Virus record (IMG/VR): IMGVR_UViG_3300030329_002967
Location: 1-64,000 of that record
Strand: one strand, 5' to 3'
Source: a virus
Length of the DNA stretch: 64,000 nt
This document shows, one piece after another, positions 46,897-57,382 of this stretch. The notes beneath the pieces were generated by a model. That model searched no databases. It was not told the origin of the DNA and saw only the letters and a program-made list of their open reading frames with translations. A program made the translations under genes and the position numbers. The number at the start of each line of letters is the position of its first letter. Positions within the stretch are counted from its first letter, which is position 1.

Positions 46897-47106
46897 TTAC
46901 TGGTTTGTAGCAAACTCGAATGCTGTATCTGGCTGAAAGTCAGGACTAATTGCTTGCCCTGTATACCCATCATCAAATCCGTCAGTCTCGAATAGCTCGA
47001 CACCGTCAAGGCATTCAGTTGGTACATCGTCAAGCATTGCGTCAAACATTCTCTCATAATCGACCCCTTGAGGTTCGCCGTTATTGATATTATTTTCTGT
47101 AAACAT
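46897..47106 (-). CDS. Small acidic protein with leaderless-type start
   Basis: 69 residues, very acidic (about 17 Asp/Glu), with aromatic residues at the end. Acidic proteins of this size are often DNA mimics or inhibitors of host enzymes, but nothing specific supports that here. The ATG is 6 nt after a -10 box. Confidence 0.65.
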   Translation of the reverse strand: MFTENNINNGEPQGVDYERMFDAMLDDVPTECLDGVELFETDGFDDGYTGQAISPDFQPDTAFEFATNQ

Positions 47107-47112
47107 GATAAT

Positions 47113-47140
47113 ATTTTAACCCATCCTTTAACCTTTGCAA
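47113..47140 (-). promoter_or_regulatory. Leaderless-type promoter of the 47106 gene
   Basis: TTGCAA, 16 nt AGGTTAAAGGATGGGT, TAAAAT; 6 nt to the ATG. Confidence 0.75.
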
Positions 47141-47257
47141 TAAAAAAGATACATTATTTCAATATATTTATCAGACATTATTATAATTACTATAATACAG
47201 CACCTCCTCCTATATTGTTGTTCATTTGAACACCCCTATATCTTTTTTACGGAATCT

Positions 47258-47308
47258 GTGTAAAAACACCACCAGTGTAAAGATGAACACCATGTAAACG
47301 TGAACACC
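47258..47308. repeat. Three tandem 17-bp iteron-like repeats
   Basis: Units at 47258-47274, 47275-47291 and 47292-47308. The last two (GTGTAAAGATGAACACC and ATGTAAACGTGAACACC) match at 14 of 17 positions; the first keeps GTGTAAA. A further copy (ATGTAAATGTGAACATG) lies at 57823-57839. This could be an initiator-binding cluster of a replication origin. The gap 47107-47727 contains no gene. Confidence 0.5.
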
Positions 47309-47338
47309 TCGTAGATATTGATACCACATATAGCACTA

Positions 47339-47433
47339 ACTACCTATTCGGTGAGCTTGCGATGGAACTGGAGGCGTGGTCATTCGGCGGGGCCACGATA
47401 ACCCTGCACCGCATAATCGCATATAGAGGTAGT
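47339..47433. other. Foldable noncoding segment with ATTCGG motifs
   Basis: ACTACCT/AGGTAGT (7 bp) encloses TGCGAT/ATCGCA (6 bp) and a CGTGGTC/GGCCACG hairpin with the loop ATTCGGCGG. CGGTG and CACCG could add a pseudoknot. No promoter of the main family was found next to it, so the transcribed strand is unknown. The ATTCGG motif also recurs in the plus-strand RNA candidates. Confidence 0.4.
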
Positions 47434-47492
47434 AGCCAGCAAGGTAGTAGCGCAAGGTGATGTACCTTGGCGCATCACTTACTCAGTAAGGA

Positions 47493-47509
47493 ATTGAACG
47501 GCGTTCAAA
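47493..47509. promoter_or_regulatory. Dispersed palindrome, copy 12
   Basis: ATTGAACGGCGTTCAAA, inside the 620-base noncoding region. Confidence 0.65.
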
Positions 47510-47592
47510 TATATGCCAGCCCCCCTGTAGCCCCTGTACATACAGATAGCTTAATCGCTAATATACTATATCGCCTAGGGGTAGCCTTGAAC

Positions 47593-47731
47593 GTAGGCTA
47601 AGAATGTTAAGATAGGCTTAGATTAAAAAAAATAGATAAGGAGTAGCTTCCTCGGTAGGATTAGCCGTTGCTTATATGTAGGCTAAGATATTAATGATAA
47701 GGGTAGCTACCGCACTAAGGTTAAACCTTAG
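47593..47731. repeat. Direct repeats and a small hairpin in noncoding DNA
   Basis: GTAGGCTAAGA occurs at 47593-47603 and 47678-47688, with related TAGGCTTAGA and GGGTAGC words between them. CTAAGG/CCTTAG form a hairpin at 47715-47731 overlapping the stop of the next gene. It may belong to the same origin-like region as the iterons. Confidence 0.4.
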
Positions 47732-48012
47732 GTAGAAGCGTAAGCTTCCTTATGTGCCTTAACTGCCTTCTTGACGGTATATGGATCTTCACATAGGGAT
47801 ACCCTAAACTGTAGATCTAACATCTTGTTTACTTCAGTTAGGATAGCGTCGGCGTTGTCCTGCACCTCTACATATAGGTGTCGGGCCGAACCTTCGCCGC
47901 TACATGGGTGAGTCTCGTCGTAAACTCTCTTGCAGTCTTGCATGATGTTGATGCATACCTGTGCAATCTGTGCCATGCCCTCTAGTGATAAATTTTCAAT
48001 TTTTTCAATCAT
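47728..48012 (-). CDS. Small uncharacterised helical protein
   Basis: 94 residues, three Cys, helical (LEGMAQIAQVCINIMQDCKRVYDE, then NADAILTEVNKMLDLQF). No family recognised. It has a leaderless-type promoter and a short downstream hairpin, so it is a single-gene unit. Confidence 0.65.
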   Translation of the reverse strand: MIEKIENLSLEGMAQIAQVCINIMQDCKRVYDETHPCSGEGSARHLYVEVQDNADAILTEVNKMLDLQFRVSLCEDPYTVKKAVKAHKEAYAST

Positions 48013-48018
48013 GCTATT

Positions 48019-48047
48019 ACTATAGCTTAGGTTAAGACCTTTGTCAA
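48019..48047 (-). promoter_or_regulatory. Leaderless-type promoter of the 48012 gene
   Basis: TTGACA, 17 nt AAGGTCTTAACCTAAGC, TATAGT; 6 nt to the ATG. Confidence 0.85.
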
Positions 48048-48213
48048 GTTATTTTATTTAAATAAAAGGTGTGAGGAGGGATTTACTTTTTACCCTCAAC
48101 TTTCGGTTTCAACATATTGCAGTTTAACCTAATCGCACTCCGCTCTCTTCGCTCAGCCGGTTGGCCCCTGCTCAAGACACAGATACTTTATTGCTGTTGT
48201 AACAATTATTCAG

Positions 48214-48519
48214 TCACTCACGTTGAGGAGCTACCTCAAAATTCATATCATCACTTAGTTGCTGTAAGCATTCCATAACATCGGTAAGTGATGCATCTAC
48301 TGCGTCTACCGTCTTATGTACATTACTCACCCTAGCTAACAGTAACGCTATAGTTATCTTGCTTAATTGGTCACTTGGGATTAACTCATCACCGCACACA
48401 CACCGTAATGCATTAACTGAAACTTCCACGGTTCCATGTGGGGAAGGTAGTTTAAGTTCCCTCGGTACTAGGTCGTAATAACCATCGCCGCATTCTGTAC
48501 AACAAATTCCTTCTTTCAT
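48214..48519 (-). CDS. Zinc-ribbon protein, transcription-factor-like
   Basis: 101 residues. CCTECGDGYY at the start and LRCVCGDE at about 38-44 form a two-CxxC zinc ribbon, as in the MqsA/YgiT type N-terminal domain. The rest is helical without a clear HTH (ITIALLLARVSNVHKTVDAVDASL). A decayed promoter copy (ATGACA ... AAATAG) precedes the ATG, overlapping the end of the upstream gene. Confidence 0.65.
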   Translation of the reverse strand: MKEGICCTECGDGYYDLVPRELKLPSPHGTVEVSVNALRCVCGDELIPSDQLSKITIALLLARVSNVHKTVDAVDASLTDVMECLQQLSDDMNFEVAPQRE

Positions 48520-48523
48520 CGTG

Positions 48524-48694
48524 CTATTTCTTAGCCCTAAGACCTATGTCATATCGCTGAGTGGTATGCTTATACCATACAGCCATACGCCGATCCTCTT
48601 CTTTCTGCTTTATCCTTTCCAACTCGTGAGCAGTAGGTTTGGTAGCTTTCAATACTCTATTCCTCTCAAGGATACTTTTTTTAAATGGACTCAT
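48524..48694 (-). CDS. Basic microprotein
   Basis: 56 residues, MSPFKKSILERNRVLKATKP..., rich in Lys, Arg and Glu, predicted mostly helical. It ends 4 bases before the zinc-ribbon gene. The ATG is 9 nt after the -10 box. Found by reading downstream of the promoter. Confidence 0.65.
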   Translation of the reverse strand: MSPFKKSILERNRVLKATKPTAHELERIKQKEEDRRMAVWYKHTTQRYDIGLRAKK

Positions 48695-48703
48695 CGTACT
48701 ATT

Positions 48704-48732
48704 ACTATAGCATAGTATAAAACCTTTGTCAA
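48704..48732 (-). promoter_or_regulatory. Leaderless-type promoter of the 48694 gene
   Basis: TTGACA, 17 nt AAGGTTTTATACTATGC, TATAGT; 9 nt to the ATG. Confidence 0.85.
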
Positions 48733-48745
48733 ATAAAAAAGGCTA

Positions 48746-48838
48746 CTATTTTCTTGGTTTAGATACCGCAAAGAACCTAAGCACTGCTACCATAATTAGT
48801 AGCCAAAATATTAAACCAACTATAACTAATGGACTCAT
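48746..48838 (-). CDS. Single-span membrane microprotein
   Basis: 30 residues: MSPLVIVGLIFWLLIMVAVL then a basic tail. One membrane segment with the N-terminus outside or in the membrane and positive charges inside. The ATG overlaps the stop of the coiled-coil microprotein (TAATG), so the frame is translationally coupled. Confidence 0.6.
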   Translation of the reverse strand: MSPLVIVGLIFWLLIMVAVLRFFAVSKPRK

Positions 48839-48975
48839 TACTTACCTTCCAATTCATCGATTATTTCAATGAGTTCATCTACCTTATCTTCAAGCTTTCT
48901 AAACCTTGACTCGATAGCGTCCAACACCTCTTGCCATGACCTCAATTCTGTACGGGGTATATCGTTATCACTCAT
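48838..48975 (-). CDS. Coiled-coil microprotein
   Basis: 45 residues; MSDNDIPRTELRSWQEVLDA then a coiled coil rich in Glu, Asp, Ile and Leu to the end. It is the middle gene of a three-gene unit from the promoter at 49121-49149. No family recognised. Confidence 0.6.
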   Translation of the reverse strand: MSDNDIPRTELRSWQEVLDAIESRFRKLEDKVDELIEIIDELEGK

Positions 48976-48983
48976 TGCTTTTA

Positions 48984-49115
48984 CTAATCTATTGGCTGAC
49001 GGCGTAAGCGTTTCTCTAAGATGCGCTTATACTTCTTAGCTTTAGCGGCTGAATTACCTCCACGGTGAAACTGCCCGTCCTCTTGCTTTGAACCTTTCAT
49101 TATTCTCTTCATCAT
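48984..49115 (-). CDS. Basic microprotein, MMK start
   Basis: 43 residues, MMKRIMKGSKQEDGQF..., with many Lys and Arg in the C-terminal half (KAKKYKRILEKRLRRQ), likely nucleic-acid binding. First gene of its unit; the first ATG is 5 nt and the second 8 nt after the -10 box. Confidence 0.62.
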   Translation of the reverse strand: MMKRIMKGSKQEDGQFHRGGNSAAKAKKYKRILEKRLRRQPID

Positions 49116-49120
49116 GCTTA

Positions 49121-49149
49121 ACTATAGCACAAGTTAAAACCTTTGTCAA
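49121..49149 (-). promoter_or_regulatory. Leaderless-type promoter of the 49115 gene
   Basis: TTGACA, 17 nt AAGGTTTTAACTTGTGC, TATAGT; 5 nt to the first ATG. Confidence 0.88.
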
Positions 49150-49158
49150 CTAATTATA

Positions 49159-49338
49159 TCAACTAATATTCGATAGTATTGAAACCGTTACAAGTGCCAT
49201 TGGCATAATTATAAAGCCCACGACATTGAATATAAACTGGGGTCTGCGGTTAGGTTTACCTTCTTCGTAGTATACTCCTCCCATCTCTTCCCACCATAGG
49301 TACAGGCGGGTACTCCACTTAGTTTTTTTATTTTTCAT
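49159..49338 (-). CDS. Small membrane protein
   Basis: 59 residues. The first 33 are polar with Trp and Tyr clusters (LYLWWEEMGGVYYEEG); a membrane segment follows at about 35-57. It overlaps the end of the gene upstream by 11 bases. No family recognised. Just below the length cut-off often used for automatic calls. Confidence 0.6.
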   Translation of the reverse strand: MKNKKTKWSTRLYLWWEEMGGVYYEEGKPNRRPQFIFNVVGFIIMPMALVTVSILSNIS

Positions 49339-49528
49339 TATTTATCGTGTCAGCAATAAGCTCATTAATTCTCGTAAGGTTACGCTCTACTAGCCTTGCT
49401 TGAATACTGGCTTCAAGCTCATCAAAGGGCTTACCGATCTTAGTTATCTGACCTATTGCGTTTAGGGCCAGTGCTGTATTAGCTTCTATGCGAGCTAGGA
49501 GTGCGTGTGTATCGGTTGATATTCTCAT
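49328..49528 (-). CDS. Small helical protein
   Basis: 66 residues, two to three helices (HALLARIEANTALALNAIG, LEASIQARLVERNLTRINEL). Second gene of the unit from the promoter at 49762. No family recognised. Confidence 0.6.
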   Translation of the reverse strand: MRISTDTHALLARIEANTALALNAIGQITKIGKPFDELEASIQARLVERNLTRINELIADTINNEK

Positions 49529-49533
49529 AGTCC

Positions 49534-49755
49534 TTAGATTCGTGATTCGTTTGAGCAGAGCTTGTCGGCTGATCTTCTGGCCTCGTCCTCTGCTCTATGC
49601 CATTCGGCTTCCTGATCCAGTTCTTCCTGCTCTATCATTTCGATAATGTCAGTCTCGTGAATAAGGTGGCCTCCTGCATCCTCGTAATACTCACTCGCTG
49701 GGTGAGAGGTAATGTGGTTGGCTTCGATATAATCTTTAATTTTTTCTTCCATCAT
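49534..49755 (-). CDS. Small acidic protein, MME start
   Basis: 73 residues, rich in Glu, Asp and His (EYYEDAGGHLIHETDIIEMIEQEELDQEAEWH read in parts). Predicted helical. No family recognised. The start is 6 nt after the -10 box. Confidence 0.62.
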   Translation of the reverse strand: MMEEKIKDYIEANHITSHPASEYYEDAGGHLIHETDIIEMIEQEELDQEAEWHRAEDEARRSADKLCSNESRI

Positions 49756-49761
49756 GATCTT

Positions 49762-49790
49762 ACTATAGCACAGTCTAAAACCTTTGTCAA
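49762..49790 (-). promoter_or_regulatory. Leaderless-type promoter of the 49755 gene
   Basis: TTGACA, 17 nt AAGGTTTTAGACTGTGC, TATAGT; 6 nt to the ATG. Confidence 0.88.
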
Positions 49791-49808
49791 ATAAAAAAGG
49801 TATTTATT

Positions 49809-49997
49809 TTAACTAGGGTGGGTAAGGGTGGTAACGGTAATATCATTAACGTGCTGGCGATCCCAATCATCGAACCCATCCATTAGATTATCGACCTTAA
49901 CATCAGCATCATCACGGGTGTCGAATGGGCCGTATACGGTGGCCCCGCAATTATCCCAACTCACTACTACAACTAGTTTATCTCCTTGTTTCATCAT
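49809..49997 (-). CDS. Small acidic protein, MMK start
   Basis: 62 residues: a beta strand KLVVVVSWDNCG, then DTRDDADVKVDNLMDGFDDWD, strongly acidic. The fold may be a small alpha/beta domain with the shape of DNA mimics, but this is only a guess. Single-gene unit. Confidence 0.62.
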   Translation of the reverse strand: MMKQGDKLVVVVSWDNCGATVYGPFDTRDDADVKVDNLMDGFDDWDRQHVNDITVTTLTHPS

Positions 49998-50002
49998 GCC
50001 CT

Positions 50003-50031
50003 ATTATATCACAGTCTAAAACCTTTGTCAA
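50003..50031 (-). promoter_or_regulatory. Leaderless-type promoter of the 49997 gene
   Basis: TTGACA, 17 nt AAGGTTTTAGACTGTGA, TATAAT; 5 nt to the first ATG. Its -35 box directly abuts the stop codon of the 50358 gene (50032-50034). Confidence 0.9.
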
Positions 50032-50358
50032 CTAAAAAGAACTACTATATTCAATATCTGGGAACTCAATACGATGCCTCAACTCATCTTGGCCTCTCAT
50101 CGCATGAAGCGAGCTTTCGCCTCCTATATGAAACTCGATACGCTCATCATCCGAGAACTCCCTGTACTCTTTCCAATCGTAAATCGTAAAGAATGAGCCA
50201 TCGCTGGTCAGCATATCCCATTCAACTGTTGTCTTATCACCACCTCCACGCCAGCACGGTTCACCGCACACTGCTTTAATCTGATTTACAGACGCTAATA
50301 TCGTCTGCCCGTGAAAACTTGTACTAATGAACGGAGTATTTTTTGCTTGTTTCATCAT
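50032..50358 (-). CDS. Small uncharacterised protein, MMK start
   Basis: 108 residues, alpha/beta with several Trp and Tyr (VEWDMLTSDGSFFTIYDWKEYREF). Two Cys in VCGEPCWRGGG. No family recognised. Its stop codon touches the next promoter without a spacer base. Confidence 0.65.
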   Translation of the reverse strand: MMKQAKNTPFISTSFHGQTILASVNQIKAVCGEPCWRGGGDKTTVEWDMLTSDGSFFTIYDWKEYREFSDDERIEFHIGGESSLHAMRGQDELRHRIEFPDIEYSSSF

Positions 50359-50363
50359 GCTTT

Positions 50364-50392
50364 AATATAGCACACCCTAAAACCTTTGTCAA
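50364..50392 (-). promoter_or_regulatory. Leaderless-type promoter of the 50358 gene
   Basis: TTGACA, 17 nt AAGGTTTTAGGGTGTGC, TATATT; 5 nt to the first ATG. It is back to back with the plus-strand promoter at 50427. Confidence 0.88.
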
Positions 50393-50426
50393 ATAAAAAG
50401 AGCATTTATTTTATGCGTTATTTAAC

Positions 50427-50455
50427 TTGACAAAGGATATAACCTGTGTTATATT
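50427..50455 (+). promoter_or_regulatory. Plus-strand promoter without a gene (1)
   Basis: TTGACA, 17 nt AAGGATATAACCTGTGT, TATATT. Same family as the minus-strand promoters, pointing the other way. No start codon and no long frame follow. Confidence 0.85.
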
Positions 50456-50461
50456 AAGAGG

Positions 50462-50640
50462 GCGGTTAGTGAGATGGGTTGCCATTGGGTACGCTGGCCT
50501 AGAGTTCCGCTTAAAGGTTAAAAAAAGCGGCTACCACGATTAGGAAAACACCTACTCCTTCTCAGCCTAGAACCCCCTCTTGATTGAGAAGTCGAATGCA
50601 GGTGAAACTACTCCCTACCTATGAAATCGTGGTAGCCAAA
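50462..50640 (+). ncRNA. Candidate plus-strand noncoding RNA (1)
   Basis: From the expected start near 50462 the transcript can fold: 50529-50541 and 50625-50637 form a perfect 13-bp stem; inside it CACCT/AGGTG (50549-50553 with 50600-50604) and CTTCTCA/TGAGAAG (50558-50564 with 50585-50591) nest. Before it, ATGG/CCAT and CCGCTT/AAGCGG hairpins are possible. There is no T-run at the end. It stops short of the minus-strand microprotein gene at 50647. Confidence 0.6.
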
Positions 50641-50646
50641 GTGATC

Positions 50647-50784
50647 CTACTCGTACCAAGTAACCTTGGCAAGTGGGAATTTTTCAAGCACCTTAGCTAC
50701 GAAAGCTTCTGCTGATCTGCGCTTGTAGCCAAATGGTCTAATTCTAGTCTCAAGGCCCGGTAATGTGTACTCTATTTCAATCAT
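50647..50784 (-). CDS. Basic microprotein with leaderless-type start
   Basis: 45 residues: MIEIEYTLPGLETRIRPFGY, then KRRSAEAFVAKVLEKFPLAK and TWYE. Alpha/beta pattern. Only the first ATG position is an ATG here (GCATGATT), showing that this position can start translation. No family recognised. Confidence 0.65.
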   Translation of the reverse strand: MIEIEYTLPGLETRIRPFGYKRRSAEAFVAKVLEKFPLAKVTWYE

Positions 50785-50789
50785 GCCTT

Positions 50790-50818
50790 ACTATAACACA
50801 GGTTAAAACATTTGTCAA
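50790..50818 (-). promoter_or_regulatory. Leaderless-type promoter of the 50784 gene
   Basis: TTGACA, 17 nt AAATGTTTTAACCTGTGT, read as TTGACA then AATGTTTTAACCTGTGT, TATAGT; 5 nt to the ATG. Confidence 0.88.
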
Positions 50819-50835
50819 CTAAAAAGATATACTAT

Positions 50836-51090
50836 TTAAATCATAACTGCGTAACCCTCGATGGCATCCTCTTCTCGGTCGCGTACGCCTTCGGTATAAG
50901 CGTTGGCCCAAGTCTCCCAATTATCCCCATCGTCTACGATGCCGATATTGGTTGGCATATTCACCCCGTTCTCCGCATCGAGTGCGTAGTATCCGATGTC
51001 GTAAGCGACTTGGGCGATGGTGTTTTCGGTGACGTTGCCATCCTTATCGACAACTTCCTCATACTTCTTTCTTAGGGTTTCGTTCATCAT
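50836..51090 (-). CDS. Small acidic protein, MMN start
   Basis: 84 residues, acidic (about 20 Asp/Glu), helical N-terminus (LRKKYEEVVDKDGNV) and a second part with DNWETWANAYTEGVRDREEDAIEG. No family recognised. Single-gene unit after the RNA cluster. Confidence 0.63.
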   Translation of the reverse strand: MMNETLRKKYEEVVDKDGNVTENTIAQVAYDIGYYALDAENGVNMPTNIGIVDDGDNWETWANAYTEGVRDREEDAIEGYAVMI

Positions 51091-51095
51091 ACCTA

Positions 51096-51124
51096 ACTAT
51101 ATCACAGTATAAAACCTTTGTCAA
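51096..51124 (-). promoter_or_regulatory. Leaderless-type promoter of the 51090 gene
   Basis: TTGACA, 17 nt AAGGTTTTATACTGTGA, TATAGT; 5 nt to the first ATG. Confidence 0.88.
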
Positions 51125-51154
51125 CTAAAAAAGGTATTTAAATTGATGCTATCC

Positions 51155-51229
51155 CCATTAGTCTCCTCCTTTCGGATTGTAGGCGTGGTCTGACGCCTCG
51201 TTGTTCGGTCTTTCGACCTACACTAATGG
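51155..51229 (-). ncRNA. Four-helix RNA fold downstream of the tRNA-like gene
   Basis: CCATTAGT and ACTAATGG close an 8-bp stem around three hairpins: GGTC/GACC with a GAAA loop, AGGCGT/ACGCCT with a 6-nt loop, and TCC/GGA with a GAAA loop. The compact four-way junction begins 2 bases after the tRNA acceptor stem. Two GNRA loops suggest tertiary contacts. It is probably part of one longer transcript from 51538. Confidence 0.58.
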
Positions 51230-51231
51230 CT

Positions 51232-51370
51232 GTCCGTAGCAGGACTCGAACCTGCGACCTCCCCTTATACCATTAACAATGACTAGTTGCTTAAAGCGAT
51301 ACCAGCGAGTAGTCACTCTCTACTGGCTCTACTTCTAGGCGGGTTGCTCTGCCAACTGAGCTATACGGAC
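51232..51370 (-). tRNA. tRNA-like gene with about 67 extra bases
   Basis: A perfect 7-bp acceptor stem (GTCCGTA/TACGGAC), D-arm GCTC-AGTTGGCA-GAGC and T-arm GCAGG-TTCGAGT-CCTGC are all present. Between D- and T-arm there are about 67 bases more than normal. A TTGTTAA loop flanked by weak pairing would give anticodon GTT (Asn), but the anticodon stem is poor. CCA is not encoded. It may be a tRNA with a small insertion or intron, or a tRNA mimic in a larger RNA. The extra part contains an AGTAG/CTACT hairpin. Confidence 0.6.
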
Positions 51371-51385
51371 ATCAATTTAATTCTC

Positions 51386-51491
51386 ACTGATGACTCACTC
51401 CCATATAGGGTTAACGAGGAGTAATTACTTCCTCCATCGAACCGCTTGCAATCGGTTTCAACTTCACCCTATAGGGGAGTGAATCATCAGT
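51386..51491 (-). ncRNA. Long-stem RNA fold upstream of the tRNA-like gene
   Basis: 51386-51411 and 51466-51491 pair over 26 positions with two mismatched positions. The closed part holds AACCG/CGGTT and GAGGA/TCCTC hairpins. The 5' arm can instead form a local hairpin TTCAC...GTGAA, so two states are possible. It starts about 40 nt after the promoter at 51538. Confidence 0.6.
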
Positions 51492-51537
51492 AATTTACGG
51501 GATAAGCTACTTACTTTTACTTCACCTCCCGTGATTA

Positions 51538-51566
51538 AATATAGCACACCCTAAAACCTTTGTCAA
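51538..51566 (-). promoter_or_regulatory. Promoter of the tRNA/RNA cluster
   Basis: TTGACA, 17 nt AAGGTTTTAGGGTGTGC, TATATT; identical in spacer to the 50364 promoter, but no start codon follows. The region 51091-51751 has no protein gene. Confidence 0.88.
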
Positions 51567-51601
51567 CTAAAAAGATATATTTTTATTTTTTATTTTTTTC
51601 C

Positions 51602-51629
51602 TTGACATAATAAATAGTTATGCTATATT
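51602..51629 (+). promoter_or_regulatory. Plus-strand promoter without a gene (2)
   Basis: TTGACA, 16 nt ending in GTTATGC, TATATT. It is divergent from the RNA-cluster promoter. The spacer differs from the family consensus. Confidence 0.7.
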
Positions 51630-51635
51630 AGCACT

Positions 51636-51775
51636 GTTCGACAAATAGCCACGGTTGATGTAACCGATTGAACGATGTGCAAAATGCTCAATTCCTCAAA
51701 GGAGGTGGGATTAAAACTTTCCCTATTCGGTAACCCCTAAAAAAACCTGCGCTACCGAAGAGCGGATAAAGGGGT
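51636..51775 (+). ncRNA. Candidate plus-strand noncoding RNA (2), antisense to the DUF2958 gene end
   Basis: After the promoter the plus strand has no long frame. TTCGGTA (51726-51732) and TACCGAA (51753-51759) can pair over 7 bp. It shares the words ATTCGG, ACCC, AAAAAACC and TG in the same order with the RNA candidate at 57491. It carries a palindrome (51667-51683) and runs into the 3' end of the DUF2958 gene on the other strand, so it could act as antisense RNA. Confidence 0.5.
51667..51683. promoter_or_regulatory. Dispersed palindrome, copy 13
   Basis: ATTGAACGATGTGCAAA, about 31 bases after the expected start of the plus-strand transcript. Confidence 0.62.
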
Positions 51776-52027
51776 CGGCTTAAACCATAAATCCCTCTCT
51801 ATGCGAGCGGATGCCGCCTCAAAGGTAGACAAAGAGAAATAGCCTAGCTCACTCACATAGCCGTCCACAAGGCCAAAAAAGGTATCCTCACCATCAAACT
51901 CAGTTGCATACCAAGTGTAATTCCCAAAAGGGGTAAAGTACTTTACTATCGCCACTGGATCTTCCTCATGCTCAGTTGATCCAAGCTTAGGTAATTTACG
52001 TCGTAACTCTTTAGTTAATAATTTCAT
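51752..52027 (-). CDS. DUF2958 protein
   Basis: 91 residues. The DUF2958 pattern is clear: MKLLTKELRRKLPKLGSTEH, VKYFTPFGNYTWYATEFDGE, FFGLVDGYVSELGYFSL, and RDLWFKPTPL at the end. The family is common on plasmids and phages; its biochemical role is unknown. It follows a 51-aa basic microprotein by 25 bases and is probably transcribed with it. Confidence 0.85.
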   Translation of the reverse strand: MKLLTKELRRKLPKLGSTEHEEDPVAIVKYFTPFGNYTWYATEFDGEDTFFGLVDGYVSELGYFSLSTFEAASARIERDLWFKPTPLSALR

Positions 52028-52052
52028 AATTAGTCTTAGTATAGCGGTACAA

Positions 52053-52208
52053 CTAAAAGCTTACCTTGCCCCTGCACTTAGCCTTACTCCTAGCCTTACG
52101 CTTATCTGTAATCCTACGGGTTCCGCTTACCATAAGCCAAGCGATAAACTTATCCCCACGCTTAACTCTGGCATGGGACACTGACTTTCTTTTTTTCGTT
52201 TTCATCAT
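52053..52208 (-). CDS. Very basic microprotein, MMK start
   Basis: 51 residues with about 18 Lys/Arg: MMKTKKRKSVSHARVKRGDK, FIAWLMVSGTRR, then KRKARSKAKCRGK. Likely binds nucleic acid. First gene of a unit with DUF2958. Confidence 0.62.
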   Translation of the reverse strand: MMKTKKRKSVSHARVKRGDKFIAWLMVSGTRRITDKRKARSKAKCRGKVSF

Positions 52209-52213
52209 ACCTA

Positions 52214-52242
52214 ACTATAGCACATCCTAAAACCTTTGTCAA
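52214..52242 (-). promoter_or_regulatory. Leaderless-type promoter of the 52208 gene
   Basis: TTGACA, 17 nt AAGGTTTTAGGATGTGC, TATAGT; 5 nt to the first ATG. Confidence 0.88.
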
Positions 52243-52257
52243 ATAAAAAGACATACT

Positions 52258-52422
52258 TTATTGGTGATGTCTTTTAAGGCATATCCTGCGCCACTTCCTA
52301 CGGGTAGTAGCAACATCCATGTCACAACTCTGTAGCAGACGCTTCCAACTCTCCCAGTTAGGTCTAGGCACGGGAGTCTCCTCCCATGCCCTTTTGCGTT
52401 CTTCGGGTGTAGTCACTTTCAT
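52258..52422 (-). CDS. Basic microprotein with Trp repeats
   Basis: 54 residues: MKVTTPEERKRAWEETPVPR, PNWESWKRLLQSC, ATTRRKWRRICLKRHHQ. Four Trp and two Cys. It starts 2 bases before the stop of the gene upstream ends, so the two are probably coupled. No family recognised. Confidence 0.62.
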   Translation of the reverse strand: MKVTTPEERKRAWEETPVPRPNWESWKRLLQSCDMDVATTRRKWRRICLKRHHQ

Positions 52423-52423
52423 A

Positions 52424-52834
52424 TTAATCTATTTCGTTACTGTAAGGACGCTTAGCGTCAACTACGTTCTTCCAACCATGACAATCCGCAACAAAGCCTT
52501 CGGACTCCAGAAACCCAACGTGCGAGCGAGCTTGCTCAACTGAGGTATCCATCGCATCAGCCAACTCATCAAAGTTCTCCCTACCGTTCAACACGATAGG
52601 ACACTCGGACGAGAAGATATACCTATTAAACGCCGCTCCTGCCCAATCAAGTCTACATCCCGTAAAGTCCCTAGGCACTCTCTGCTTACCCATAGCCGTC
52701 TGTACGCACTCTTTAAGCCTAATGAACGAAGGACGAACCCCAAAATCTTCGGCGACTCTCCTACGGATCTCTGCTCCCTCCTTCAACTCGGCTGGGGTTG
52801 CCAGCCTTCCTTTATTTTTCTCTTTTTGCATCAT
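52424..52834 (-). CDS. Possible winged-helix DNA-binding protein
   Basis: 136 residues, MMQ start 6 nt after a -10 box. The C-terminal part, FDELADAMDTSVEQARSHVGFLESEGFV, reads as a winged-helix HTH (helix-turn-helix then wing). The middle has a beta part with SSECPIVLNGREN. It could be an early regulator; it is another candidate for binding the dispersed palindromes. Confidence 0.58.
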   Translation of the reverse strand: MMQKEKNKGRLATPAELKEGAEIRRRVAEDFGVRPSFIRLKECVQTAMGKQRVPRDFTGCRLDWAGAAFNRYIFSSECPIVLNGRENFDELADAMDTSVEQARSHVGFLESEGFVADCHGWKNVVDAKRPYSNEID

Positions 52835-52840
52835 GTAGGT

Positions 52841-52869
52841 ACATTAGCACAATAAAAAGATCTTTGCAA
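52841..52869 (-). promoter_or_regulatory. Leaderless-type promoter of the 52834 gene
   Basis: TTGCAA, 17 nt AGATCTTTTTATTGTGC, TAATGT; 6 nt to the first ATG. Confidence 0.72.
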
Positions 52870-52893
52870 GTTTTATTTTCAATTATTTACAAA

Positions 52894-52923
52894 TAAAAAA
52901 AGGGAGGCTTTCGCCCCCCTTTA
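52894..52923 (-). terminator. Intrinsic terminator
   Basis: On the minus strand AAAGGGGGGC and GCCTCCCTTT pair over 10 bp (one G-U) with a GAAA loop, followed by seven U. It lies directly after the 20-aa microprotein gene at 52927 and ends that transcript before the next promoter. Confidence 0.88.
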
Positions 52924-52926
52924 TTG

Positions 52927-52989
52927 TTATTTTTTGTTAATCTCGTCGTAGACAAGAATAGCCAGCAGTATTAATGCAAGTATTGTCAT
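52927..52989 (-). CDS. 20-residue membrane microprotein, copy A
   Basis: MTILALILLAILVYDEINKK, then stop. One membrane helix of 14 residues and a charged tail. It differs from copy B (57315-57377) at four positions, all conservative (I/L, V/I, I/L), with many silent base changes, so both are under protein-level selection. Second gene after the 120-aa protein; followed by a terminator. Confidence 0.75.
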   Translation of the reverse strand: MTILALILLAILVYDEINKK

Positions 52990-52996
52990 AAATAAT

Positions 52997-53359
52997 TTAA
53001 ACTACTACCACCTCTACACGATCTTCCATTTCAGGAAAATCGCCCTTAATCTTTCCTGCAAGATAAGCTCTAGCTCTCTCCTTACCTACGTTGATCCACT
53101 CCCGTGAGTCAACAGGGCGGCCATTCACCTTAGGCAAGAAGTGTTCTTGGTGGAATCCAATCCCGGTTATCCCGTTAACTCGCTCCCTTGTGGTAGGGGT
53201 ATTCCATCCTGCCAGCGTAGCAAACACTTCGCCATTTTCACGTTTGATAATCTTGTTACCAAACAGCCATACGCTTTCACCGTCCGTGTAAGTGTTATCC
53301 ACTCTTAACTCTCTGCCCGACTCAAATGCGGATTTAATTCGTTGTGTTATTTTTCTCAT
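52997..53359 (-). CDS. Uncharacterised protein of the accessory region
   Basis: 120 residues. Beta-rich with conserved-looking NTYTDGESVWLFGNKI, TTRERVNGITGIGFHQE and a VEVVVV end. The pattern looks like a small phage family that modifies or binds a surface, but I cannot name it. It has a leaderless-type promoter and leads into the membrane microprotein 7 bases downstream. Confidence 0.65.
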   Translation of the reverse strand: MRKITQRIKSAFESGRELRVDNTYTDGESVWLFGNKIIKRENGEVFATLAGWNTPTTRERVNGITGIGFHQEHFLPKVNGRPVDSREWINVGKERARAYLAGKIKGDFPEMEDRVEVVVV

Positions 53360-53364
53360 GCTTT

Positions 53365-53393
53365 ACTATATCACAGGTTAAAACCTTTGTCAA
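53365..53393 (-). promoter_or_regulatory. Leaderless-type promoter of the 53359 gene
   Basis: TTGACA, 17 nt AAGGTTTTAACCTGTGA, TATAGT; 5 nt to the ATG. Its -35 box directly abuts the stop codon of the 53579 gene (53394-53396). Confidence 0.9.
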
Positions 53394-53579
53394 CTAAAAA
53401 GATGTAACTTCATCAATATAATTAACATTAAAATCATTATCTTCGAGTAGCTTTCTATCAGAGTAGTTCCTGACTATCTCTTCTGCTTCTTCTTTGTCCT
53501 TTGCTTCTACTTCGTAGCAATTCATTATGCTAACGCCAACGTAGTATTTTTTCTTCTTACTCATCTCCTTATCTTCCAT
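53394..53579 (-). CDS. Small protein sharing an initiation block with the gene upstream
   Basis: 61 residues; starts MEDKEMSKKKKYYVGVSI. ATG codons at 53579 and 53564 are both possible. The residues EDKEMSKKKKY are also found inside the upstream gene, because a 34-bp DNA block is repeated (53544-53577 and 53734-53767). The rest is alpha/beta with an acidic helix (EAKDKEEAEEIVRNYSD). Confidence 0.6.
   Translation of the reverse strand: MEDKEMSKKKKYYVGVSIMNCYEVEAKDKEEAEEIVRNYSDRKLLEDNDFNVNYIDEVTSF
53544..53577. repeat. 34-bp direct repeat, first copy
   Basis: Identical to 53734-53767. It encodes EDKEMSKKKKY in both places and contains AAGGAGATG on the minus strand. Confidence 0.85.
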
Positions 53580-54060
53580 CTCTTTTATCCAGATCCTCTG
53601 GTTTCAGATACTCTGCTAGGTGTTGGCAATCCTCATCGGGGTAGTCATATACTTCTACGTTACCTTTTGAATCATGCTTATAGTTCCCGTCTTCATCCTT
53701 TAGTGCGTAGGATAAATCCCAAACTACTACTTCGTATTTTTTCTTCTTACTCATCTCCTTATCTTCCCAATCTATTGAATGAGCATAAACAAGTAACCCT
53801 TCCAAAGCCTGTGAAGGATCTGTAAGCTTTAATACAATATTGCACCCTTCATCTATAAGCTCCTCATTCTCAGAATTATCATAATCAAGTACCGCCTCTA
53901 AGGTTGGCGTATCTCTAACTATAACTGCTCTGTGATGCTGAAAAGAACGCTTACGAATTGCTCCAACGTCTCTAACCTTTAATGGATATACGAGAGTAGC
54001 TTCGTCGTAAGCTCTTGTGCAGGACTTCCTTATCTGTCTATACTTATTAGTGTTTTTCAT
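53569..54060 (-). CDS. Two-part accessory protein with internal start-like block
   Basis: 163 residues. The first 97 (KVRDVGAIRKRSFQHHRAVIVRD...LKLTDPSQALEGLLVYAHSI) form one unit. Then EDKEMSKKKKYEVVVWDLSY begins a second unit of about 60 residues that is related at its start to the next gene. This looks like a fusion of two small genes, or an internal start at Met 103. The ATG is 8 nt after the -10 box (GCACGATG). Confidence 0.6.
   Translation of the reverse strand: MKNTNKYRQIRKSCTRAYDEATLVYPLKVRDVGAIRKRSFQHHRAVIVRDTPTLEAVLDYDNSENEELIDEGCNIVLKLTDPSQALEGLLVYAHSIDWEDKEMSKKKKYEVVVWDLSYALKDEDGNYKHDSKGNVEVYDYPDEDCQHLAEYLKPEDLDKRDGR
53734..53767. repeat. 34-bp direct repeat, second copy
   Basis: Identical to 53544-53577; here it is inside the long gene. 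Confidence 0.85.
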
Positions 54061-54068
54061 CGTGCTTT

Positions 54069-54097
54069 ACTATAACACAGGTTAAAACCTTTGTCAA
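54069..54097 (-). promoter_or_regulatory. Leaderless-type promoter of the 54060 gene
   Basis: TTGACA, 17 nt AAGGTTTTAACCTGTGT, TATAGT; 8 nt to the ATG. The first ATG position is changed to ACG here. Confidence 0.9.
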
Positions 54098-54109
54098 CTA
54101 AAAAGGCTA

Positions 54110-54691
54110 CTAATATTGATCTCCTTCCCTAGCGTATACTTCAACTCGCCTCTGAATTTCATCAAAGATTAAGTTAATAGTCTTCCGGCTAGTCTCCGTT
54201 CCGTAGTACCCACTCCCATGCGTTCCTTCTTTGATTCTATTAACCCTCAGAGCCACTAACTTAAGTAACTCTTCACTGGTACAGGTTTCAAAAAAATCAG
54301 TATAAACATCCCAATTCCATTCAACTCCATAAAGATCATTATCGGGTTTAGTAACAGGCTCTTCCTTATTCTTAGGAGCAGAGCAGAGCCGAGTAGACGC
54401 ATACTCGCTTATATAAGGATTCATCCACTCCTTAACAAAATAATTAAGGGATCTTGTTCCTATAACTCCTTCATTAATAGGATGCCTACCTTTTCTATCA
54501 TACCTATATTGGATAGAAATGGAATTAGGTTTACCTGTCGCTTCCTCCACTGCCTTAATCGCATCCTCACCTACCCAATTCTGCTGAAGATAATGTTGGC
54601 GAAATCTTCCAACTTTACTGCAAACGCCATCAATTACTTCAGATGGGACGTTGCTCTCAATAAACTCTTTAATTGTTTCTATATTCATCAT
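54110..54691 (-). CDS. Uncharacterised protein, MMN start
   Basis: 193 residues, the largest of the unknown accessory proteins. Helical with aromatic clusters (YGVEWNWDVYTDFFETC, HGSGYYGTETSRKTINLIFDEIQRRV). No family recognised. Single-gene unit. Confidence 0.65.
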   Translation of the reverse strand: MMNIETIKEFIESNVPSEVIDGVCSKVGRFRQHYLQQNWVGEDAIKAVEEATGKPNSISIQYRYDRKGRHPINEGVIGTRSLNYFVKEWMNPYISEYASTRLCSAPKNKEEPVTKPDNDLYGVEWNWDVYTDFFETCTSEELLKLVALRVNRIKEGTHGSGYYGTETSRKTINLIFDEIQRRVEVYAREGDQY

Positions 54692-54697
54692 GCTTTT

Positions 54698-54726
54698 AAT
54701 ATAACACAGGTTAAAACCTTTGTCAA
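54698..54726 (-). promoter_or_regulatory. Leaderless-type promoter of the 54691 gene
   Basis: TTGACA, 17 nt AAGGTTTTAACCTGTGT, TATATT; 6 nt to the first ATG. Confidence 0.9.
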
Positions 54727-54746
54727 GTTATTTTATATAAGTTTTT

Positions 54747-55097
54747 TTAAGCTATCGCCTTCCTTCCTAACCCTTCCATATTTAGCTCTGGCCGCATCTC
54801 CTTAATCATTGCAAGCTCACAGGCATGGGCTTCTTTCTTGCCTCGTATGATAGTCACTACTTCCCGTGTAAAGGCATCTGGCCCCGACTCTCTGATAGCA
54901 TCAGCTATACGAGTAACCTTACCGTACTGAAGTGCATTCCGTGTATGGGCCTTGAACCTATTCTTCACTGAACGAGTGAATGCCCTGCCTTCCGCTACTA
55001 CCACACCTATATACTGATCTCCTGTAGTATTGCAGGTAAGTTTATAAATCACATAGTTCCTATCGGAGCGTTTCTTGCGTGGTTTGTTTTTCATCAT
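54747..55097 (-). CDS. GIY-YIG endonuclease
   Basis: 116 residues from the ATG at 55097 (MMK start); a start at 55112 would lie in the promoter. YVIYKLTC then QYIGV gives the GIY and YIG elements, followed by VKNRFKAHTRNA with the catalytic Arg and His, and ACELAMIKEMRPELN with the Glu and Asn. It is a single-domain enzyme with a basic N-terminus (KNKPRKKRSDR). Probably a free-standing homing endonuclease. Confidence 0.82.
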   Translation of the reverse strand: MMKNKPRKKRSDRNYVIYKLTCNTTGDQYIGVVVAEGRAFTRSVKNRFKAHTRNALQYGKVTRIADAIRESGPDAFTREVVTIIRGKKEAHACELAMIKEMRPELNMEGLGRKAIA

Positions 55098-55103
55098 GCC
55101 TAC

Positions 55104-55131
55104 AGTATACACAATAAAAGAACTTTGTCAA
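55104..55131 (-). promoter_or_regulatory. Leaderless-type promoter of the GIY-YIG gene
   Basis: TTGACA, 16 nt AAGTTCTTTTATTGTG, TATACT; 6 nt to the first ATG. A palindrome lies 8 bases upstream. Confidence 0.82.
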
Positions 55132-55139
55132 ATAAAAAG

Positions 55140-55156
55140 ATTGAACGACGTTCAAA
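55140..55156. promoter_or_regulatory. Dispersed palindrome, copy 14
   Basis: ATTGAACGACGTTCAAA, between the U-tract of the terminator and the GIY-YIG promoter. Confidence 0.7.
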
Positions 55157-55218
55157 AAAAATAGGGTCGGGAGAAACTCTTATATGCTGACTGTACGCCA
55201 ACTAGTAACTCCCGACCC
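55154..55218 (-). terminator. Large terminator-like stem with U-tract
   Basis: GGGTCGGGAG (55164-55173) and CTCCCGACCC (55209-55218) pair perfectly over 10 bp around 35 nt. On the minus strand the stem is followed by UA and eight U. It ends the 55478 transcript, including the structured part at 55241-55333. Confidence 0.72.
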
Positions 55219-55240
55219 CGGTATGATGAAAAAAGCTTGT

Positions 55241-55333
55241 AACAGTAACCAACCAAAGTTTTCGAGAATTTAAGATCCTGTTGTGGATCGCTCTATCACT
55301 TTGTAACTCCCTTGGTAGAGAGTGGTTACTGTT
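55241..55333 (-). ncRNA. Structured 3' UTR or RNA candidate
   Basis: AACAGTAACCA (55241-55251) and TGGTTACTGTT (55323-55333) pair perfectly over 11 bp. Inside are GATCC/GGATC (6-nt loop) and CTCTATC/GGTAGAG (7 bp with one G-U), making a three-way junction. It starts 4 bases after the stop of the 46-aa gene and is followed by a terminator, so it could be a stable 3'-end-derived RNA. Confidence 0.58.
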
Positions 55334-55337
55334 AAAA

Positions 55338-55478
55338 TTATCTCCAATCGCCTATATGAACCACGTACTTATTCATATCAGGTGCTTCAATCTCAAAGGA
55401 AAGCTTCTCCATCTTCAGCCAGTAGATTAACTTAACCAACTGCTCTGTCTCGTATAATGTAATTGTGTCTCCCATCAT
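55338..55478 (-). CDS. Microprotein, MMG start
   Basis: 46 residues: MMGDTITLYETEQLVKLIYW, LKMEKLSFEIEAPDMNKY, VVHIGDWR. Alpha/beta pattern. No family recognised. It lies between a strong promoter and a structured 3' UTR; the RNA part may be as important as the peptide. Confidence 0.65.
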   Translation of the reverse strand: MMGDTITLYETEQLVKLIYWLKMEKLSFEIEAPDMNKYVVHIGDWR

Positions 55479-55484
55479 GCTTTT

Positions 55485-55513
55485 ACTATATCACAGGTTA
55501 AAACCTTTGTCAA
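55485..55513 (-). promoter_or_regulatory. Leaderless-type promoter of the 55478 gene
   Basis: TTGACA, 17 nt AAGGTTTTAACCTGTGA, TATAGT; 6 nt to the first ATG. The end of the 55667 gene overlaps its -35 box and spacer. Confidence 0.9.
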
Positions 55514-55667
55514 ATAAAAAGTGTTGGATTTTTGATAACGTGGATTTACCATTTATGGTGGGCTTACCATCGTTACTCTCAGACTCGCTGGTTTTCAACA
55601 GCAAGAGGTTATTTCTGCGTTTAGAAATTACCCAACTACCTTTGTACAAAATGTTAACAATAATCAT
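55491..55667 (-). CDS. Microprotein whose end overlaps a promoter
   Basis: 58 residues from an ATG at 55667 that overlaps the end of the 55836 gene. Basic with KRRNNLLLLKTSESES. Its last residues FDKGFNL plus stop are read from the promoter sequence (TTGACAAAGGTTTTAACC...TGA). No family recognised. The overlap may be chance read-through to the first stop. Confidence 0.48.
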   Translation of the reverse strand: MIIVNILYKGSWVISKRRNNLLLLKTSESESNDGKPTINGKSTLSKIQHFLFDKGFNL

Positions 55668-55836
55668 TATGAGTAAATATATCTTTCCATAGTTTTACAA
55701 CTTCCTTATCACTCATCTTATTATAAACGAAATCTAACAGGAGATCGACTATCTCACCTTCATGCATAGTGCGAGCTTCCCTTTGAGCTAATTCAAAACG
55801 CTTATTCTTTAACTCAATCATCTCTTCTTCTTTCAT
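55654..55836 (-). CDS. Small helical protein
   Basis: 60 residues, charged, helical (EEEMIELKNKRFELAQREARTMHEGEIVDLLL read in parts). Fourth gene of the unit from the 56278 promoter. No family recognised. Confidence 0.6.
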   Translation of the reverse strand: MKEEEMIELKNKRFELAQREARTMHEGEIVDLLLDFVYNKMSDKEVVKLWKDIFTHNDYC

Positions 55837-55841
55837 AACTT

Positions 55842-56090
55842 CTAACGATACTTACTGTTAAACTGTAACTCCCAACCCTTCGGGCTAACTCCCGTGACCG
55901 CAAACTCCCTGTCATCCGCACTAAGCGACCTTAGCGCATCTTGAGCTAAAGCCCCTTGGTTGTACCGAAACAACTCCTGCGCTGGAATAGCGACGCTATA
56001 CTCCTCTCCCGTAACGACACACGGCCCCGTAAAAGTGTAAACGTGTGGGTCGTAGGACTCTTCGTATTTGCAGTTTTGTAGGTATGCCAT
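55842..56090 (-). CDS. Small beta protein of a conserved-looking phage type
   Basis: 82 residues. The part VYTFTGPCVVTGEEYSVAIPAQELFRYNQGALAQDALRSLSADDREF has the look of a small phage family, with a beta hairpin, the LFRYNQG turn and an acidic helix, but I cannot name it. It follows the 59-aa gene by 2 bases. Confidence 0.66.
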   Translation of the reverse strand: MAYLQNCKYEESYDPHVYTFTGPCVVTGEEYSVAIPAQELFRYNQGALAQDALRSLSADDREFAVTGVSPKGWELQFNSKYR

Positions 56091-56092
56091 AA

Positions 56093-56272
56093 TTATTCGT
56101 AGCTGTAAGGGATGCTGTCATCTGAATAAACTTCAGATAGTTGTTTTGCGATTAGTGCGACCCTCTCGGTTTCATTCGCATCATCATTCAATATCTCCCA
56201 TAGCTCTCGTGGATCTGACTCCCCGAAAACTTCCCGTGGGTCTTGTTGTATCAATTCTTTATTTTTCATCAT
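56093..56272 (-). CDS. Acidic microprotein, MMK start
   Basis: 59 residues: MMKNKELIQQDPREVFGESD, PRELWEILNDDANETER, then VALIAKQLSEVYSDDSIP. Acidic and helical. First gene of the unit. Found by reading downstream of the promoter. Confidence 0.65.
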   Translation of the reverse strand: MMKNKELIQQDPREVFGESDPRELWEILNDDANETERVALIAKQLSEVYSDDSIPYSYE

Positions 56273-56277
56273 GCCTT

Positions 56278-56306
56278 ACTATAACACAGGAATTATTCTT
56301 TGTCAA
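56278..56306 (-). promoter_or_regulatory. Leaderless-type promoter of the 56272 gene
   Basis: TTGACA, 17 nt AAGAATAATTCCTGTGT, TATAGT; 5 nt to the first ATG. The -35 box encodes the last residues (IDKE) of the 56559 gene. Confidence 0.85.
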
Positions 56307-56559
56307 TTAAAATATATAACTTTTTTAATAACCTTCTGTACCGAGCATCCAGTACTATAACTACCCCTAAGATAAGAATGTTCAGCACCTTGATAGGCAG
56401 GAGTTCCATGCCTTTTTCGGAATCAACTAAATACAGCATAACCCACGCAAATGTGCCTACCAGCACTGCCCATAGCAATAACTCCTTTATTCTATACAGT
56501 CTGCAAAGCCTACTATGTAGGCGAGTAGACTCGCTAAATTGGTATTCGGTTTTCTTCAT
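56293..56559 (-). CDS. Two-span membrane protein
   Basis: 88 residues with membrane segments at about 29-47 (LLLWAVLVGTFAWVMLYLV) and 54-70 (LPIKVLNILILGVVIVL). Basic ends. Its stop lies inside the next promoter. It overlaps the gene upstream by 4 bases. No family recognised. Confidence 0.63.
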   Translation of the reverse strand: MKKTEYQFSESTRLHSRLCRLYRIKELLLWAVLVGTFAWVMLYLVDSEKGMELLPIKVLNILILGVVIVLDARYRRLLKKLYILIDKE

Positions 56560-56963
56560 CTCTTCGATCTGCTGGTGTAATATTCGTTAAGCTCCTTCTG
56601 GGTTTCGGTAAATGAATCCCATGACTTACTCAGGTGGGCTGAGGTAACTCGCTCGTTATGCTCATCTTCACCTGCGTAGAGCGGGATGGCGCAAGTCTTC
56701 CCGTCTTCGTCACATGGCCTGTAGTTATCCACATGATCCCATAAGTCTACGTTTGGTATCCACCAAAGGTTAGTCTTTCGGGTCTGCTCTAGGTAGGCAT
56801 CTGAGCCAGTCTTGGTGTCCTTAGAGTCGAAGCCTAAGCCGTAAATTCTTGCCAGCCTTCCCATAGCCTCAAATGGGTTTCGGCCAGTGCAGTAGCCCAT
56901 ACAACTCGTAGCGAAGTACGTGCCTTTCTGGGATGTTAAATATAAGTCTAAGTTTTTCATCAT
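56556..56963 (-). CDS. Uncharacterised protein, MMK start
   Basis: 135 residues. The start LDLYLTSQKGTYFATSCMGYCTGRNPFEAMGRLARIYGL has a beta hairpin with two Cys and a helix, similar to small phage proteins of unknown role. The second half is acidic with several Trp. First gene of its unit. Confidence 0.64.
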   Translation of the reverse strand: MMKNLDLYLTSQKGTYFATSCMGYCTGRNPFEAMGRLARIYGLGFDSKDTKTGSDAYLEQTRKTNLWWIPNVDLWDHVDNYRPCDEDGKTCAIPLYAGEDEHNERVTSAHLSKSWDSFTETQKELNEYYTSRSKR

Positions 56964-56969
56964 GCTATT

Positions 56970-56998
56970 ACTATATCACAGGTTAAATCCTTTGTCAA
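56970..56998 (-). promoter_or_regulatory. Leaderless-type promoter of the 56963 gene
   Basis: TTGACA, 17 nt AAGGATTTAACCTGTGA, TATAGT; 6 nt to the first ATG. Confidence 0.9.
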
Positions 56999-57013
56999 GT
57001 TATTTATGTAAGT

Positions 57014-57271
57014 TTATATTACGTGGCCCTCATAGAGATAAAGATCGTCTGGGAAATCACCTCCGCACGTTACCCATGTAATCCCGGTAACCCTGTAATC
57101 GTACTGTTCGCACTCACCGAATACGTCATAGTCCTCATACCAAGGTGCAGGGTATTCGCCTCCTACCTCTGGCTTCAGTTCGGCTACAATCCCTGAGAAC
57201 TCTTCGCCCTTCCATATGAAGCGTATTCGCTGGCCTACGCTTACTGCTGTACTGCACTGTTGTTTCATCAT
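57014..57271 (-). CDS. Small beta-barrel-like protein, MMK start
   Basis: 85 residues. VGQRIRFIWKGEEFSGIVAEL looks like an SH3- or KOW-like barrel start; acidic and Tyr-rich middle (PWYEDYDVFGECEQYDY). No family recognised. Single-gene unit. Confidence 0.64.
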   Translation of the reverse strand: MMKQQCSTAVSVGQRIRFIWKGEEFSGIVAELKPEVGGEYPAPWYEDYDVFGECEQYDYRVTGITWVTCGGDFPDDLYLYEGHVI

Positions 57272-57276
57272 ATTAT

Positions 57277-57305
57277 ACTATAACACAGGTCAAAACCTTT
57301 GTCAA
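57277..57305 (-). promoter_or_regulatory. Leaderless-type promoter of the 57271 gene
   Basis: TTGACA, 17 nt AAGGTTTTGACCTGTGT, TATAGT; 5 nt to the first ATG. Confidence 0.9.
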
Positions 57306-57314
57306 GTTATTTAT

Positions 57315-57377
57315 TTATTTTTTATTGAGTTCGTCATAAATCAAAATCGCCAGTAAAAGAAGGGCTAATATTGTCAT
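57315..57377 (-). CDS. 20-residue membrane microprotein, copy B
   Basis: MTILALLLLAILIYDELNKK, then stop. The ATG is 5 nt after a -10 box of the main family, so this peptide has its own leaderless unit. Near-identical to copy A (52927-52989) at protein level but not at DNA level. Size and shape fit small membrane toxins or regulators of membrane enzymes. Confidence 0.78.
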   Translation of the reverse strand: MTILALLLLAILIYDELNKK

Positions 57378-57382
57378 GCCCT

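Follow-up and report, generated by a model that had tools for sequence, protein, structure and literature searches.

The window analyzed here, 64 kb of a 70.7-kb IMG/VR phage record, contains a 660-base gap between the ORFs at positions 50836-51090 and 51752-52027, and this gap holds an RNA locus, all parts of which lie on the minus strand (Table 1). No ORF of at least 50 aa was found in 51090-51752, and no ATG-started ORF of at least 25 aa was detected on the transcribed strand of the locus, in agreement with the original prediction that these 660 bases are devoid of a protein gene. It had also been proposed that one promoter leads into the locus, and a TTGACA-17-TATATT sequence was indeed located at 51566-51538. 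A strict sigma-70 pattern (TTGACA, 16-18 nt, TATANT) was matched 24 times in the window, mostly 5-9 nt ahead of an ATG, so that the corresponding messages would be leaderless. The copies that were not placed at this distance from an ATG were those at 51566 (-), 50427 (+), 51602 (+), and 57456 (+). The promoter of the RNA locus is of the phage's own type, without an ORF behind it.

Table 1. Features of the RNA locus in the window. Paired strands are separated by a slash.
Feature	Position	Strand	Remarks
Promoter TTGACA-N17-TATATT	51538..51566	-	TG precedes the -10 box; no ATG within 40 nt
5' domain	51384..51493	-	19+8 bp stem ending in a two-hairpin junction; z -8.5
P0, 5' strand UUAAAUUGAU	51371..51380	-	flush with the acceptor stem; mononucleotide-shuffle p 5e-5
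tRNA-like unit	51231..51370	-	acceptor 51370-51364/51238-51232, D arm 51361-51346, T arm 51255-51239, A73
Middle segment, 90 nt	51256..51345	-	replaces position 26, anticodon arm, and variable loop
3' element, conserved	51155..51230 (about)	-	z -4.3; homologues L306, L309, L114, L311
P1 of 3' element	51229-51222/51162-51155	-	pairing kept through sequence change
P3 of 3' element	51218-51215/51210-51207	-	GAAA loop; pairing kept through sequence change
Invariant core ACGAGGCGU-N5-CACGCCUA	51180..51201	-	unchanged in 7 aligned sequences
P4 of 3' element	51197-51193/51186-51182	-	
P5 of 3' element	51176-51174/51169-51167	-	GAAA loop; pairing kept through sequence change
P0, 3' strand AUCAAUUUAA	51138..51147	-	pairs with 51380-51371
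U6 run, probable 3' end	51127..51132	-	from sequence; overlaps the conserved upstream part of the next promoter
P1 stem sequences of the five members			CCAUUAGU/ACUAAUGG; CUUACAC/GUGUAAG; CUGAU/AUCAG; CUCUUU/AAAGAG; CUCAACAG/CUGUUGAG

The predicted transcript, of about 400 nt, comprises in order a 5' stem domain, a tRNA-like unit, and a multi-helix element, and as a whole (51531-51128) it was far more stable than its shuffled versions (z -6.8). No terminator hairpin was found at the U6 run. We infer that this promoter drives the synthesis of a single RNA that folds as one molecule. The 26-position stem fold of the original prediction corresponds to the 27-bp stem of the 5' domain; none of 200 shuffled sequences was as stable, and the pair probabilities were 0.98-0.99. 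This domain was found so far in the window phage only. A helix that had been overlooked, P0, consists of 10 pairs, all Watson-Crick, which enclose both the tRNA-like unit and the 3' element; its mean pair probability was only 0.47, with the shuffle p value given in Table 1. Formation of P0 would imply that the RNA extends at least to 51138, and the tRNA-like unit and the 3' element may thus be enclosed in a single domain that directly abuts the acceptor stem. Neither P0 nor the 5' domain was seen in the homologues described below.

The tRNA-like unit matched the Rfam tRNA model RF00005 with 46.3 bits (E 1e-6 over 64 kb; gathering score 29), and was not reported by ARAGORN at 51370-51231. As had been noticed, its acceptor, D, and T arms are perfect (7/7, 4/4, and 5/5 pairs, respectively), and the proposed excess of about 67 bases agrees with a middle segment of 90 nt, since an anticodon arm and variable loop normally take about 24 nt. 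The three arms of the RF00005 model are thus present, and a canonical anticodon arm was found neither directly nor after one excision. The middle segment alone folded no better than chance (z -0.43), and in an exhaustive single-excision search the score reached for a canonical anticodon arm was equaled by 54% of shuffled inserts, which argues, as far as sequence can tell, that this unit is not a decoding tRNA in waiting. An encoded CCA was considered, as GCCA stands behind the acceptor, and was rejected: the homologues keep only N-GC, so the match is probably a coincidence. An ordinary tRNA with a group I intron, the case that would have spoken against the original prediction, was excluded by the size of the insert, which is too short, and by the lack of a match to any Rfam intron family. 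Like tmRNA and other tRNA-like structures, the unit has an acceptor and a T arm and carries a large domain between the D and T arms, but its D arm is intact with a 4-bp stem, and no tmRNA was matched in the window by ARAGORN or Rfam.

Directly behind the acceptor stem, the predicted four-helix junction with two GAAA loops was recovered as a stable fold, all helices of which nest inside P1. A further helix, P2 (UGUAG/CUACA), is possible and has end bases in common with P1 and P4. Scanning 47 records for the invariant core with at most one mismatch returned the three expected exact matches and no others, whereas a reversed control pattern gave no match in the same records. The 22-nt core (ACGAGGCGTNNNNNCACGCCTA) is an easy search handle for more members.

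Homologues were sought by several routes. A pattern built from two hairpins of the 3' element matched at least six IMG/VR stretches; among the matches listed, four had no further likeness and two, L306 and L309, were homologous, sharing with the window a nearly identical core, about 45 nt long, in which three positions vary. In both, the element lies directly behind a T arm. L309 scored 36 bits with the Rfam tRNA model, contains a 97-nt insert, and has a perfect TTGACA-17-TATAAT promoter upstream; L306 has perfect acceptor (7/7), D, and T stems, with 160 nt from the D stem to the T stem. A scan of our loci with ACGAGGCGT-N5-CACGCCTA led to L114, in which the core stands directly behind a second tRNA-like unit; this contig had originally been chosen for an insert in another of its tRNAs and not for the core. 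When the complete region was compared by blastn with 50,697 phage records, mainly tRNA arms were matched. Further blastn matches were weak (E 0.7-8). One of these, in Pseudomonas phage Psa21 (E 2, acceptor 6/7), shows the full arrangement, unannotated, inside a tRNA array, its assignment coming from context and structure. Support is weaker still for three other phages, in which the core is present and the remaining parts were not fully assignable: pEa_SNUABM_4, with an unannotated copy in a tRNA array, Kumotta, and CUS-3, where the core lies between Q and holin. The well-supported members are thus few (n = 5: the window, L306, L309, L114, and Psa21), two of the homologues having been found by core probe. 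Since the scans used exact patterns, the first of them judged among the matches listed, this set is small and biased toward near-identical cores. Searches with the terminase and DNA polymerase gave best contigs of 33-53% protein identity, and the RNA was absent from the parts of these contigs that were scanned.

The stretch of CUS-3 carrying the core (25116-26038, between Q and holin S) is non-coding and unannotated. A query of 421 bases spanning this core was covered to at least 80% in 117 of 5,426 complete E. coli genomes, and, among the matches listed, these copies were mostly without an annotated feature.

In all five members, the tRNA-like unit, made up of an acceptor, a D arm carrying GG, and a T arm, is followed by the 3' element in the same register (acceptor 3' strand, N, GC, P1), although the five acceptor stems are all different. 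The P1 stems also differ in all five (5-8 pairs, all Watson-Crick), the P3 stems are of three kinds (GGUC/GACC, AUGA/UCAU, and GCAC/GUGC), and the P5 stems are different in every member. P1, P3, and P5 therefore vary in sequence yet stay paired around a core that does not change, so that the covarying homologues that had been suggested as a check were found, with compensatory changes. As MAFFT puts P3 and P5 in the wrong place, the helices were assigned manually and not from an automatic alignment. It is this fixed-register arrangement, a tRNA-like unit and an element with the invariant core and maintained P1, P3, and P5 pairing, that was found across the family. The distance from the D stem to the T stem is free to vary, with values from 28 to 160 nt (90 in the window and 108, 160, 58, and 28 in the others). 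The spacing of 28 nt, in Psa21, is near normal, and some members could thus be functional tRNAs to which the element is simply appended.

At the loci of the family, no Rfam family other than tRNA was matched, and no description of the 3' element was found in the open-access literature. As the module also follows tRNA-shaped RNAs in other phages, it indicates an RNA family absent from Rfam, and we consider it rather probable that the locus is a gene devoted to a non-coding RNA of about 400 bases, one member of a new family of phage RNAs in which a tRNA-like unit is joined in fixed register to a conserved module. The family would be an apparently undescribed group of structured RNAs tying the tRNA fold to a 3' module across phages of different hosts, namely the Pseudomonas phage Psa21 and uncultivated phages, and perhaps phages of Erwinia, Arthrobacter, and E. 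coli.

As to function, the RNA may act as a tRNA mimic, as a 3'-end processing element, or as a ribozyme. Both the fixed register and the presence of a small invariant core among variable helices would be expected of a ribozyme or of a factor-binding module. In the proposed mechanism, the RNA would be transcribed from its own promoter and fold as one molecule, its tRNA-like part would not serve as a decoder, and the retained tRNA elbow would be recognized by tRNA-binding or processing enzymes. The 3' element always starts immediately behind the acceptor stem, at the site expected for the CCA end, and could control or replace 3'-end maturation, either by binding a factor or by self-cleavage; the product would be a stable tRNA-shaped RNA whose anticodon arm is replaced by a phage-specific domain. 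We propose only tentatively that the module represents a new class of natural ribozyme or a factor-recruiting RNA that docks on a tRNA fold and processes its 3' end, and that phages use such RNAs to make tRNA-shaped molecules in which other domains replace the anticodon arm.

Among the alternatives, the one with the most in its favor is that the 3' element is a new self-cleaving ribozyme, or an RNase site, that trims the 3' ends of phage tRNAs, the tRNA-like unit being its substrate. Its position directly after the acceptor stem in five members, the short invariant core inside variable helices capped by GAAA, UUCG, or GGAA loops, and its occurrence in tRNA arrays are all consistent with this, and theta ribozymes provide a precedent: these HDV-like ribozymes are also small structured elements fixed directly 3' of phage tRNAs, for which trimming of the tRNA 3' end was proposed (PMC10879173). 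However, no Rfam ribozyme was matched, and an HDV-like folding of the element was rejected, as its topology, with all helices nested inside P1, is against it, no double pseudoknot was visible by eye, and the Rfam HDV models were not matched. The tRNA-like unit also differs from the tRNAs that accompany theta ribozymes in that it is usually without a normal anticodon arm. We thus regard the trimming ribozyme as possible rather than probable. A divergent member of GOLLD is unlikely, even though the setting is similar: GOLLD is a large structured RNA of some bacteria and phages or prophages that contains a tRNA or pseudo-tRNA and occurs in tRNA clusters (PMC6582537), and the present RNA shares with it an embedded tRNA-like unit in a large phage RNA and the association with tRNA arrays. 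Yet the GOLLD model RF02032 gave no match at E<=10 in seven records (that of the window and six others), nor in permissive local scans of the loci, whereas the core and architecture reported here were found without this model. By the Rfam model, the likeness to GOLLD holds and membership does not; of the original suggestion that the RNA was either a GOLLD member or a new class, the second part is the one to which the homologues with compensatory changes lend support.

It is less likely still that the locus is an intron-containing tRNA gene, for example a Thr GGU tRNA with an intron after nt 29, from which the insert is spliced out. Small inserts at nt 28/29 are common in phage tRNA genes, and a mature arm, CCCUA AUGGUAU AAGGG, can be drawn; but this arm has an A31-A39 mismatch and two extra nucleotides, and more than half of the shuffled inserts did as well, as mentioned above. 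The insert of the window was also rejected as a member of either of the two recurrent insert families described below: it scored 3.4 bits with the class B model (R1, a hairpin and ACAGCAA at nt 28/29) versus 26-47 bits for members, and the class A model (R2, a two-stem fold with a GUUAUC end) had no match in it. Moreover, neither RtcB nor a T4-type RNA ligase was found in the record, in which a PF09414 match corresponded to a DNA ligase. Phage tRNA genes with short inserts of undefined type, called enigmatic introns, were reported in Lak megaphages by Devoto et al. (PMC6784885); the insert of the window differs in that it cannot be removed to give a tRNA, and the excerpted text of that paper describes no conserved 3' element. 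Finally, a decayed tRNA within an unrelated RNA would account for the absence of an anticodon arm, but in the window the other three arms are all intact, and unrelated phages share this arrangement, which makes this reading very improbable. Our preferred reading thus remains a new RNA family, and with the cultured phages Psa21 and pEa_SNUABM_4, the question of tRNAs within ornate RNAs, which dates from the time of GOLLD, becomes testable in ordinary infections.

In parallel, two recurrent families of 40-60-nt inserts were observed in the anticodon arms of phage tRNA genes, mostly after nt 28 or 29, and in many of these genes, removal of the insert restored a canonical anticodon loop on a 5-bp stem. 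Class B consists of a hairpin and a nearly invariant ACAGCAA (L013, L024, L063, L079, L125, L136, L158, and others; alignments A1 and A4), with a covariation score of 0.668 versus 0.213 +/- 0.032 for shuffled alignments and at most 0.280 for slid controls. With the class B model, more copies were detected in contigs from Clostridia and in Pectobacterium phage CBB, whose class B genes, of 114-122 nt, are annotated as tRNA-OTHER, tRNA-Phe, or tRNA-Ser. The class B pattern was also matched in the bacterial contigs L269-L300, nearly all from Clostridia (including Ruminococcus flavefaciens FD-1) plus two from Myxococcota, and ARAGORN did not report the class B genes of bacterial contigs in the loci tested. 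Class A has a long stem with an inner hairpin, forming a two-stem fold, a CTT...CGA internal loop, and a GUUAUC end (L008, L061, L111, L153, L155, L156, L267, L076, L053, and L040; alignment A5), with a covariation score of 0.494 versus 0.256 +/- 0.037; its model detected several copies in each of L076, L053, and L040. A permissive Rfam scan of ten intron-bearing or neighboring loci returned only tRNA, tRNA-Sec, and sub-threshold matches, and no description of class A or class B introns was found in the open-access literature. A role of phage RNA ligases in the removal of tRNA introns was considered and rejected, as no enrichment was observed (14 of 33 intron-bearing contigs versus 6 of 15 control contigs). 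In addition, a tRNA-like gene of a 131-kb viral contig (L264, 110-217, minus strand) has no visible anticodon loop, its anticodon arm being a GC-rich branched double hairpin.

Elsewhere in the window, the region 47000-57500 contains an array of near-identical extended -10 promoters located 5-9 nt before an ATG, often ATGATG, and followed by small ORFs, which are apparently leaderless early-type genes. Three more promoter-driven stretches, at 50462-50650, 51636-51790, and 57489-57690 on the plus strand, have no start codon beside the promoter; their folding z-scores were -2.5, -0.6, and -1.6, respectively, and the first has a 12-bp closing helix (GGCTACCACGAT/ATCGTGGTAGCC). A manA RNA (RF01745), a motif known from marine metagenomes and cyanophages, was matched on the minus strand at 48066-48239 with 56.8 bits, for a gathering score of 55.2.
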